A stretch of DNA of 64,000 bases from Sulfurovum sp. TSL6 (GTDB taxonomy: Bacteria > Campylobacterota > Campylobacteria > Campylobacterales > Sulfurovaceae). The notes beneath the pieces were generated by a model. It was not told the origin of the DNA. It ran no database searches and was given only the letters and a program-made list of their open reading frames with translations. Both the position numbers and the translations under genes were made by a program. This document shows, piece by piece, positions 31,527-35,632 of this stretch; position 1 is the first letter of the stretch; every line of letters begins with the position of its first letter. The stretch lies in the NCBI RefSeq assembly GCF_019972115.1, contig NZ_BPFJ01000001.1:930001-994000 (forward strand), written 5' to 3'.

Positions 31527-33992
31527 TTACTCTTTATCGTCTTTTTTCTTTTTAGACTTTTTCTCTTTTTTAGAATCTGACTTATCTTTATTTTTTTCTT
31601 CTTTAATACTATCTTGTATTTTTTGATCTTTTGTAGTGTCTAATTGCTCTTGTTTCTTTTCTTCTTTTTCTTTCTGTATCTTAGCCAATTCAAGTTTGAA
31701 ACTTGTGCCTTTATCTTCTTTGATCTTTAACGCTTTTTCATACGCTTCAATAGCTCTATCCAGGTCTTTTTTCTGAAACTGCTTGTTACCCATGTTATGT
31801 AGGTTTATGAAATCACGTTCAGCTTTTGCTTTTTCATATTCGTGATCTATGGCATCTTCAGTCTTTAAATTTAACAATGCTTTTACTTTATCGATCAAGC
31901 TGCTTAATGTCATCTTATGCTTCTCATCAGTCTCTGTTTCAGATTTATTAGGGAAGAATGACTTGACCTTATCTATAAATGTAGTAGTATACCCTGTTAC
32001 TTTATTTTCTTCTTTACTCTCATCTTCTTCATACTCCGAAGTACCTTCTGTCTGTACGAGTTTCTTCTCTTCATCTTCTGTTTCTTTTTTGCGAGGGAAA
32101 TATGACTTGACATTATCTATCAGAGTGCACCATGTAGTCCTGTCTGTTTCTTCACACTCATATCCTTCGTATAGCAGCGTATCATCATGATGTGTTATTT
32201 CTTTCTTATCCTCATCCTTTTCTTCTTTTTTTCTAGGGAAAAGTGACTTAAGATTATCCGTCAAAATACACCATGTACTACTCCGATCTTTATCTTCAAA
32301 TTCATGGTCATGTGGCATCAAGGCCTTTGCATTATCCATCAATACAGGGATGAAGTACAATGAAACCAGTGTAGCCGCTATACTTCCAAAAATAAGTGCT
32401 ACACCTAATCCACCGAAGATAGGATCTGTTGCCAGCAATAAACTACCGAGGATGATGGCAATAGCAGTAAGCATGATAGGTTTTGCACGTGTAGCTGTTG
32501 CAACGGCTATGGCTCTTTTCTTCTCAAGACCTTCATGGGCGATCAAAGACTTTGAAAAGTCTATCAGCAGTAATGAACTTCTAGCACTGATCCCCATCAG
32601 TGAGATAAAACCTATTAGAGATGTCGCCGTAAGAAAGAAATGTGTATCTGCTGCATAGAGTGATATCTTATCAGTGATCCAATGCCCTACAATAACCCCT
32701 ATTATAGAAAGGAAACTCCCCACAAGAACAATACCGCTTAAAGCAAAAGATTTATAATACACAACCATCAGCAAAAACATCAACACCAAAGCAGCGATAA
32801 ATGCACCACCCAGATCCCGGAAGGTATCAAGAGATACTTTCATTTCACCATCCCAGCGTATAAGTACTTCATCCCCAGTCTCTTTGTCTACTGCGATCAA
32901 ATCAAACATATAAGTGTTGATTCCTGGCACTTTACTCAAAGTATATTCATCTTTAAGTAACTCTAGCATCTTTTCTCTGGCTTCAAGTAAAGGATATACT
33001 TGACTTACCATATCACATTCTGCAGTGATCGTCACCATATTTTTAAGGTTTTTTCTAAAAATAGTAGGACTGGAGTCCGCACTTTTTACCTCAACTACTT
33101 CACTTATAGGTACCATCATTCCTTTATCATTCATAAGCTCTAATGAAAAGAGTTTATTGAGCAAAGAAGTTTCTGTATCTTCGTCAACTACACGTGTTTC
33201 ATCATCAAGTCTCAGAAATATAGGAATTTGGTCTTGCTGGTTTTTTGTATTTTTCTCAGCTATGGGCATCCCTTTGAACGCAAGATAAATGATCTGGTTG
33301 ACCTGCTCCACATTAAGTCCGCTTAATATGATCTTTTCCTTGTCCGGTACAAGATTATATTTGGTATAGATGTCATCCTGCATTACATCGACATCAACCA
33401 GTCCTTCTGTATCTTTAAGTATCTTCGCGACTTTAGCGGACATTTTTCGTAATGTACTCTCATTTTCATTATAGAGTTCCACAACGATCGTTGCTAAAGT
33501 TGGAGGACCCGCAGGCATCTCAATGAATTTGATAGAAGTATGAGGGACTATATTTCCACATTCATTTTGGATAAGAGGCCGTAAACGATGTGCCATCATA
33601 TACGTAGGTTCATCACGATCATTTTTGTTTGTAAAATTAAGGACTATCTCTGCCTGGTTCTTCATCCTTTTAAGTGCACTTCCCTTGACCAGTCCTGCAT
33701 AATCAAGCGGTGCCCCCTGCCCCAGATACACCTCCATATCTGTGATCTCTTTTTCTTGTTTCAAATAGTTGACAATACATGTTGTAACGGATTGTGTTTC
33801 TTGAATAGATGCATTTGTAGCAGTATCGACATAGATACTCATAGTATTAGCACTCTTCCCTGGAAGCATACGGGCAAGTACCAGTTTCGTAGGTATCATC
33901 ATGACTGCAGCTCCCATAGAGAAAAGAACAATGAGAGTCACGATCCACTTGTTACGTTTGCTGTTAATGATGTTATAGACAATTTTTTCCAT
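31527..33992 (-). CDS. RND permease, C-terminal half, with a tandem-repeat and lysine-rich cytoplasmic tail
   Basis: From the ATG at 33992 the product is 821 residues. The first 550 or so equal the second half of a full RND pump: TM7 (about 17-36), the porter domain with PTKLVLARMLP and AGPPTLATIVVELY, then TM8-TM12, with GISARSSLLLIDF in TM10, where the usual proton-relay Lys is Arg. The tail (about 550-821) has five degenerate repeats around L(I/T)DN(V/L)KS-FPRKKE, a TPR-like stretch (about 730-760) and a Lys/Glu-rich end. It follows the N-half with a TGATG overlap. No adaptor gene is next to it. Confidence 0.88.
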   Translation of the reverse strand: MEKIVYNIINSKRNKWIVTLIVLFSMGAAVMMIPTKLVLARMLPGKSANTMSIYVDTATNASIQETQSVTTCIVNYLKQEKEITDMEVYLGQGAPLDYAGLVKGSALKRMKNQAEIVLNFTNKNDRDEPTYMMAHRLRPLIQNECGNIVPHTSIKFIEMPAGPPTLATIVVELYNENESTLRKMSAKVAKILKDTEGLVDVDVMQDDIYTKYNLVPDKEKIILSGLNVEQVNQIIYLAFKGMPIAEKNTKNQQDQIPIFLRLDDETRVVDEDTETSLLNKLFSLELMNDKGMMVPISEVVEVKSADSSPTIFRKNLKNMVTITAECDMVSQVYPLLEAREKMLELLKDEYTLSKVPGINTYMFDLIAVDKETGDEVLIRWDGEMKVSLDTFRDLGGAFIAALVLMFLLMVVYYKSFALSGIVLVGSFLSIIGVIVGHWITDKISLYAADTHFFLTATSLIGFISLMGISARSSLLLIDFSKSLIAHEGLEKKRAIAVATATRAKPIMLTAIAIILGSLLLATDPIFGGLGVALIFGSIAATLVSLYFIPVLMDNAKALMPHDHEFEDKDRSSTWCILTDNLKSLFPRKKEEKDEDKKEITHHDDTLLYEGYECEETDRTTWCTLIDNVKSYFPRKKETEDEEKKLVQTEGTSEYEEDESKEENKVTGYTTTFIDKVKSFFPNKSETETDEKHKMTLSSLIDKVKALLNLKTEDAIDHEYEKAKAERDFINLHNMGNKQFQKKDLDRAIEAYEKALKIKEDKGTSFKLELAKIQKEKEEKKQEQLDTTKDQKIQDSIKEEKNKDKSDSKKEKKSKKKKDDKE

Positions 33993-35632
33993 CAATTCTC
34001 GTCCTCAACACTCTTTGGATGACTTTCAAACTTAATAAACTTACGGGCTAGATATGGAGCAAAAACATACGCAACAAAGAGTGAAATAGCAAGTGCAACC
34101 GGTACATTCAGAGGAATAGGCTTCATAAATTGTCCCATCATACCTCCAACAAATCCCATAGGGATCATCGTAAGCATAATAGCGATAGTTGCAATGTTTG
34201 TTGAAGGACCTATCTCATCAGTTGATTGGATGATGATCTCATCAAATTCAAGTTCTTCAGATTCTTTAAGATGCAGTCTTCTATGTATGTTCTCAATCAC
34301 AATGATCGCATCATCAACGATCAGTCCCAAACTCAGGAGGAATGCAAACAGGGTGATACGATTGATCGTCTGATCGGTCATTAATGCAATAAAAAGTGTG
34401 GTCGCAAGTATCATAGGTACGGCAATGGTCACAACCAATGATTCTCTCCAACCAAGGAAAGGTACCAGGATCAATGCAATAATAAGTATAGTGATCTCTA
34501 AGTGATGTACAAGTTCATTGACCGCTTCATTCGCCCGTGTACCATAATTACGTGTCACTATAAACCCAACGCCATGGTTCAACAACTTTTCTTTATTCTT
34601 TTGTATCTCCTCTATCGCTCTTTGTGCTATATTTACGGCGTTGGTTCCTTTCAGTTTAGCTATGGTCATAGTGATCTGGTCCCCAGCATCACGAAATAGA
34701 ATCGGTCCAGGTTCTTCTTTATCCTCACCAGAGGCATCTTCTTCTCCTGGCGTATATTCCTGGTAAGTAATGGAAGCTGAATCATAATTTTGGATATCGT
34801 AGTTATATTCCACTTTGGCAATATTTTTCAGATAAATAGGTGATCCTCTATACTGGGCAATGATTAATTCATTAAGATCTTCCACATTATCCAAGGCATT
34901 TTGCACACCAAAGACGATAAGCTTGCCTTCTGAAGTTCTTGTGTCTATCTCCGGTGCATTCGTGGAAATAGACCTGACAGATTGTGTCACCTGCCCTAAA
35001 GAGATGTTATAAGCAGAGAGTTTATGCAAGTCTATCAAGATATTGAACTGTGGTTTCTTCACACCTTTGAGTGTGGTTTTTGCTACATTATCAAGAGCAT
35101 TAATATCTTGTTGAAGCTCACGTATGATCTTATAAAGATTGATCGTATCGATCTCTTTATTGCCTGCTTTATAAAATGCTACGGTAAGTATAGGGATATC
35201 GATATCGATGTCAAAAGGTTTGACCAACGGAGGCATGGTACCTTTGGGAAGTTGATCCATGTTTTGCATGACTTTATCATAAAGTTTGAGGTTGGATTCT
35301 TCCCTGTTTTGACCGATAAAATACTGTACGTTGATCATACCAACATTATTCATCGCAGTACCGTAAACATGTTCTACACCTTTAATCTCACGTATACGTC
35401 TTTCAAGAGGTTTGATGATAACATTGGTGATCTCACTAGGTGTAGCCCCAGGTATAGCAACGATGATAGAACCACCGCTCACTTCTATCTGAGGATCTTC
35501 TTCCCTAGGCATGATCTGCAAAGAGAGAAACCCCAAAAGTAAAATAGCAACAGCTAATACAGGGGTAAGAGGATTACTTAAAAATCCTTTTGCAAGATGT
35601 CCGGCAATATTATTTATTTTATACACTTCCAT
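33992..35632 (-). CDS. RND permease, N-terminal half
   Basis: The product is 546 residues with TM1 (about 18-37), the signature IMPREEDPQIEV, a porter domain and TM2-TM6. The proton-relay acidic pair is in GLIVDDAIIVIENI of TM4. It stops after TM6 at KFIKFESHPKSVEDEN, exactly where a full-length relative would continue into TM7. The downstream gene supplies the remainder, so two polypeptides probably make one protomer. The family exports drugs, metals or lipids. No TolC or membrane fusion partner is encoded nearby. Confidence 0.9.
   Translation of the reverse strand: MEVYKINNIAGHLAKGFLSNPLTPVLAVAILLLGFLSLQIMPREEDPQIEVSGGSIIVAIPGATPSEITNVIIKPLERRIREIKGVEHVYGTAMNNVGMINVQYFIGQNREESNLKLYDKVMQNMDQLPKGTMPPLVKPFDIDIDIPILTVAFYKAGNKEIDTINLYKIIRELQQDINALDNVAKTTLKGVKKPQFNILIDLHKLSAYNISLGQVTQSVRSISTNAPEIDTRTSEGKLIVFGVQNALDNVEDLNELIIAQYRGSPIYLKNIAKVEYNYDIQNYDSASITYQEYTPGEEDASGEDKEEPGPILFRDAGDQITMTIAKLKGTNAVNIAQRAIEEIQKNKEKLLNHGVGFIVTRNYGTRANEAVNELVHHLEITILIIALILVPFLGWRESLVVTIAVPMILATTLFIALMTDQTINRITLFAFLLSLGLIVDDAIIVIENIHRRLHLKESEELEFDEIIIQSTDEIGPSTNIATIAIMLTMIPMGFVGGMMGQFMKPIPLNVPVALAISLFVAYVFAPYLARKFIKFESHPKSVEDEN

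Follow-up and report, generated by a model that had tools for sequence, protein, structure and literature searches.

The window, a stretch of 64,000 nucleotides from Sulfurovum sp. TSL6, encodes an RND permease whose second half continues far past its last transmembrane segment: about 260 of its 821 residues lie beyond TM12 (Table 1). Where does such a tail come from, and what might it do?

Concerning the permease itself, Pfam ACR_tran matched the N-half with an E value of 8.1e-72, profile positions reaching 497 of 1021, and the C-half with an E value of 1.5e-42. The C-half ORF was listed from a TTG at 33995, and its likely start is the ATG at 33992, which gives 821 aa. The two ORFs overlap by one base, the stop codon TGA of the N-half sharing a base with the ATG of the C-half (TGATG). 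A permease in two ORFs was found at 49/49 loci for which the junction was compared (the window and 48 further loci), with the break between TM6 and TM7 and either a small overlap (TGATG or TAATG) or a gap of a few bases, and the split is kept across Sulfurovum, Sulfurimonas and other Campylobacterales. The window permease is not a single 12-TM polypeptide; more distant paralogues are single proteins of ~1,100 aa. Our search of open-licence papers did not find a split RND permease described in Campylobacterota, and for RND specialists this split across the order is perhaps a better lead than the tail. C-half orthologues are 53-90% identical in the core. In a Foldseek comparison with the PDB, AcrB, CmeB and AdeB were the best matches to the C-half model (E about 1e-16); the low confidence of the model kept the TM-scores at only ~0.33. 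Against the NCBIfam RND subfamilies, the window permease fell far below the cut-offs. By eye, in AcrB numbering of the proton-relay positions, the window C-half has Arg at the K940 position (SARSSLL) and Lys at R971 (TRAKPIM) near TM10-TM11, a charge-keeping swap, and TM4 in the N-half retains its Asp pair (VDDAI). The pump family is an ordinary one, but the tail, composed of helix repeats and a piece of BatC, is a clear example of a transporter that has acquired an additional domain on the inside of the cell.

Table 1. Features of the split permease and its tail (positions in the window)
Feature	Position	Strand	Remarks
RND permease N-half, 546 aa	33992..35632	-	TM1-6 and first periplasmic loop
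RND permease C-half with long tail	31527..33995	-	TM7-12 and second periplasmic loop
Unit 0, VLMDNAKALMP	32313..32345	-	End of TM12, FIPVLMDNAKALMP; ancestral RND ending
Unit 1, TWCILTDNLKSLFPRKKE	32223..32276	-	The one helix common to genus orthologues
Unit 2, TWCTLIDNVKSYFPRKKE	32082..32135	-	Tandem copy of unit 1
Unit 3, TTTFIDKVKSFFPNKSE	31938..31988	-	Copy of unit 2
Unit 4, LSSLIDKVKALLNLKTE	31857..31907	-	Most diverged copy; adjoins BatC junction
BatC-derived fragment with one TPR motif	31677..31856	-	TPR at 31713-31799
Lys/Glu-rich end, probably also BatC-derived	31530..31676	-	BatC alignment continues

Past TM12, four copies of an amphipathic helix, roughly WCxLxDNxKSxFP followed by basic residues, occupy positions 31857-32276. 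The initial annotation had listed five repeat peptides here, and all five were located in frame on the minus strand at the place it gave. The internal similarity that it had noticed also stood up to shuffling. When residues 545-705 were compared with themselves, the best off-diagonal score was 112, while 500 shuffles had their median at 30 and never exceeded 56. At the DNA level the best score was 43, with 62/81 bases identical at an offset of 141, and the maximum in 100 codon shuffles was 16. The long diagonal of the self-comparison defined a duplicated block of ~47 aa (141 bp), consisting of an acidic linker and then the helix TWCxLxDNxKSxFPRKKE; the unit 2 block (31998-32138) is a copy of 32139-32279. 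Short repeats copied from the last permease segment had been proposed. The repeats are real, but the block is ~47 aa long instead of 14 aa, and units 1-4 resemble one another far more than they resemble unit 0. Spacings between matching residues of units 0 to 4 are 78, 141, 144 and 81 bases; of the values first given (80, 141, 147 and 80), 141 matches and the others are near. Unit 3 shares 44/57 bases with unit 2 at an offset of 144. The protein similarity of unit 4 is weak (amino acid scores of 37 to unit 2 and 31 to unit 3), and its DNA match (19/26 identical, score 12) lies inside the codon-shuffle range. Judged by these alignments, units 1 to 3 are certainly copies, with unit 4 weak and near the noise level. 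Tandem Repeats Finder did not list the array on the DNA because the copies are too diverged.

The TPR-like stretch and Lys-rich tail that had been described after the repeats were both recognized, the former by Pfam TPR_1 (E 1.9e-6, residues 732-760) and the latter in the last ~50 residues, which are rich in lysine. In a protein search, nearly every genome of the genus gave a single additional match, confined to residues ~700-820; in each case read, this was BatC, a TPR/Lys-rich protein with a signal peptide in a Bat operon (MoxR AAA, DUF58, two VWA proteins, BatC and BatD). The window genome carries an intact BatC in its own Bat operon at G000:C2, which matches NCBIfam TPR_BatC_Lepto below the cut-off. 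Against this BatC, residues 713-772 gave an alignment score of 169 (shuffle maximum 64). The TPR segment with the start of the charged region is 50-65% identical to BatC, the fragment also matching BatC in relatives, and the fused segment aligns from YDEAIKAYEKAEG across the TPR to LELAKKQKQKEE. The Lys-rich end scored 108, a value that shuffles of its composition also reach (99th percentile 110). These alignments indicate that the tail from about residue 713 is a captured, in-frame internal fragment of BatC, to which the Lys-rich end probably also belongs by contiguity. Since the intact batC is still in its operon, this was a copy and not a move. The captured fragment has no signal peptide, begins inside the TPR region and lies outside any Bat operon.

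The proposal that the domain arose as duplicated copies of the permease end therefore holds for the tandem helix block beside that end but not for the TPR part, which is a BatC fragment. A BatC origin of the helix block was also considered and rejected (score 56, shuffle mean 59); with no relation to BatC, the helices lie outside the captured piece. We likewise rejected a mobile-element route of capture. The palindrome-like CCCCGTGTCAAGCACGAGGATGAC downstream (G000:C1:961441) is single, apart from one near match with three mismatches, and without a repeat family there is no mobile repeat to explain the capture. In one relative (L040, G019:C1:76.5-77.7 kb), BatC contains an internally repeated Lys/Gln-rich sequence, interrupted by a run of N, a hint that slippage may lengthen the charged region within batC.

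We then consider how widely the tail occurs. Genus orthologues of this permease copy are about 600-616 aa long and have a single helix bearing WC[VI]L, so that the repeat number in relatives is lower (one copy); the conserved pattern of these single-helix orthologues is WC-[VI]-L-x-[DN]-[NH]-[IL]-[KR]. Private tail extensions are present in L005/L041 and L080. A paralogous copy (for example G000:C1:21625-23307) and the orthologues outside the genus end shortly after TM12. Most single-helix tails (L077, L079, L085, L010 and others) carry cysteines, two or three per tail (C, WC, C), that are separated by acidic and basic stretches and for which a metal site or a disulfide-type role is conceivable from the sequence. 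The full tail, beyond the BatC part, was found in 2/78 genus genomes: the window genome and Sulfurovum sp. S2D-Bin_1_1 (G003, JAPHUJ010000200.1). No further helix array in an open frame was met among 299 genomes of the order, many of which are incomplete, so that further long-tail members may exist. In the permease-core tree the two proteins are sisters (100/99), with the one-helix G011 next, and in the BatC-fragment tree the two fused copies group (SH-aLRT 98), the 62 columns of the latter being too few to name a donor species. The limitation of the long tail to these two genomes indicates a single, recent origin. The end of the S2D-Bin_1_1 tail has a younger, private 78-bp duplication (68/78 bases identical) spanning the last helix and the start of the BatC piece, and so the tail region is still changing. 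A BatC- or TPR-fused RND permease was not found described in the open-licence papers searched.

The second genome also bears on whether an assembly artefact or chance low-complexity similarity could account for the tail. Lys/Glu-rich sequence does inflate scores, and the Lys-rich end, taken by itself, does not match BatC significantly. On the other hand, the independent S2D-Bin_1_1 genome shares this architecture, and repeats and TPR both exceed composition-matched shuffles, which leaves this explanation a negligible chance.

We now turn to the source of unit 1. Unit 0 is present in every orthologue and paralogue, tail-less ones included, and [VI]L[MT]DNxK[AS] is common to units 0 and 1 in every relative with a single helix (p 0.0004 in a joint column permutation). 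This shared short pattern, together with the true tandem copies of units 1-3, would suit the view that the entire tail, TPR included, was built from the TM12 end of the permease. We regard that view as highly improbable: the TPR part resembles BatC at the identity given above and has no match in the permease. In most relatives, moreover, some other window fits unit 1 better than unit 0 does. Unit 0 is the top-scoring window of its own protein in 5/13 relatives and ranks 2 to 15 of ~560 elsewhere, which leaves room for convergence on a short amphipathic helix. The outgroups have unit 0 and lack the helix, so direct copying of unit 0 is not required. The resemblance of unit 0 to the helix is weak, and unit 1 may either derive from the TM12 end or resemble it by convergence.

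Selection on the tail was estimated from the window genome and S2D-Bin_1_1. The dN/dS values were 0.07 for the core, 0.23 for the whole tail, 0.15 for the TPR, 0.34 for the Lys-rich end and 0.38 for the stretch between unit 2 and the TPR, which is 32% identical between the two species; these values are rough, coming from one sequence pair in which the synonymous sites of the tail are near saturation. Unit 2 gave a pN of 0.08 with a pS of 0.75. The tail frame is open over ~270 codons in both species, at a core dS of ~0.7. The low dN/dS suggests that the tail is made and kept, under a constraint looser than that of the core and far from neutral. A serious rival, and a real possibility although we do not favour it, is that the tail is tolerated baggage, produced by neutral replication slippage and gene fusion and without function beyond sparing the pump. 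Its rate of evolution, roughly threefold that of the core, the poor conservation between unit 2 and the TPR, the additional duplication private to the sister species and the lack of a long tail in most of the genus all agree with this. The long open frame and the constraint on the TPR and unit 2 argue against it.

The explanation that we consider probable on balance is a lineage-specific chimeric tail, helix array plus BatC piece, that may act as a flexible, membrane-touching cytoplasmic tether. The sequences show that the genus-wide state is a short cytoplasmic tail with a single amphipathic helix after TM12. In the ancestor that the window genome shares with S2D-Bin_1_1, tandem duplication of the ~141-bp helix block produced three or four copies, and a second copy of an internal batC piece (the TPR and part of the charged region, without the signal peptide) became joined in frame behind the helices. 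Most of our confidence lies in this anatomy and origin; the functional steps, taken alone, are put forward tentatively.

As for function, each half of an RND permease begins and ends in the cytoplasm, six TM helices following a cytoplasmic N-terminus. By this topology the tail should be on the cytoplasmic side, whereas BatC is exported. The description of the repeats as amphipathic stretches ending in basic residues proved apt, as the helix units have hydrophobic moments of 0.37-0.48 and basic residues follow the helix, which suits a helix on the inner membrane face. In the AlphaFold model of the C-half a short helix appears at each unit and the TPR has a pLDDT of 73-80, but residues 561-696 are below 50 throughout, and the helices are for this reason weakly predicted. 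We suppose that the hydrophobic side of each helix and the basic residues next to it would bind the inner membrane face, with disordered acidic linkers between the helices. Such a multivalent, flexible tether might hold or position either the N- and C-halves of the permease or the trimer of the pump, and the TPR with the Lys-rich end might offer a weak cytoplasmic docking surface.

In a stronger version, the tail would specifically dock a partner that controls the pump, either a cytoplasmic protein or the Bat machinery. TPRs commonly bind proteins, and MmpL3 provides a precedent for a disordered cytoplasmic C-terminal domain (PMC10171966). However, BatC has a signal peptide and the VWA domains of Bat proteins are periplasmic (BB0173 in Borrelia, PMC5700661; see also PMC3557215), so that the usual partners of BatC cannot meet a cytoplasmic tail, and binding to Bat partners is unlikely. 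Only a single TPR motif is retained, fewer than is usual for a binding groove, and our analysis identified no co-occurring partner gene. Specific docking is an unlikely role overall.

The neighbourhood of the permease differs among relatives. Many have a HlyD_D23 membrane-fusion protein (MFP) gene between a FadL-like gene and the permease (L077:7941-8795). No MFP gene adjoins the permease in the window genome (31254-31526 checked), where two more distant ones lie on the same contig (C1:19190 and C1:32491), and tblastn matched no remnant between FadL and the window permease. The gene is also missing beside the permease in the near clade of S2D-Bin_1_1 (G006, G009, G011, G021). It is a distinctly improbable idea that a periplasmic TPR module was co-opted to the cytoplasmic side as a control or anchoring domain, tail growth and loss of the adjacent MFP gene being one rewiring of the pump.

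With both the one-helix relatives and the donor gene surviving for comparison, the locus presents the gain of a domain by a transporter in two ordinary steps: a short helix block was duplicated in tandem, and a fragment of an unlinked gene was captured. The tail can be seen as a small natural experiment on how a cytoplasmic C-terminal domain of an RND protein begins, the best-studied such domain being that of MmpL3, which serves localisation and regulation.

Among known systems, the HAE-type permeases AcrB, AcrD and AcrF are like the window permease in that the ACR_tran profile covers both of its ORFs, and the fold of the halves matches AcrB and CmeB; the window permease differs from AcrB, AcrD and AcrF in consisting of two half-proteins and in its long cytoplasmic tail after TM12. 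With BatC the tail shares the TPR segment and the start of the charged region, but the window piece is a fragment lacking the signal peptide, outside the Bat operon and on the opposite side of the membrane. In spirochaetes, BatB-BatC and BatD-TPR gene fusions are known (PMC3557215, PMC5700661). There too batC/TPR coding regions became fused to neighbours, within one operon, whereas the Sulfurovum piece moved to an unlinked transporter gene. Cytoplasmic C-terminal domains, rare in canonical RND proteins, occur in the mycobacterial RND proteins MmpL3, MmpL11 and MmpL13, where they are disordered and concerned with localisation, protein contacts and phosphoregulation; MmpL13 is likewise split into two genes (PMC10171966). 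Like the window permease, these are RND transporters whose cytoplasmic C-terminal domain is long and for the most part disordered. They belong to another RND branch and have no apparent sequence relation to the Sulfurovum tail, which is made of helix repeats and a BatC piece, and the likeness to MmpL3 concerns layout and not ancestry.
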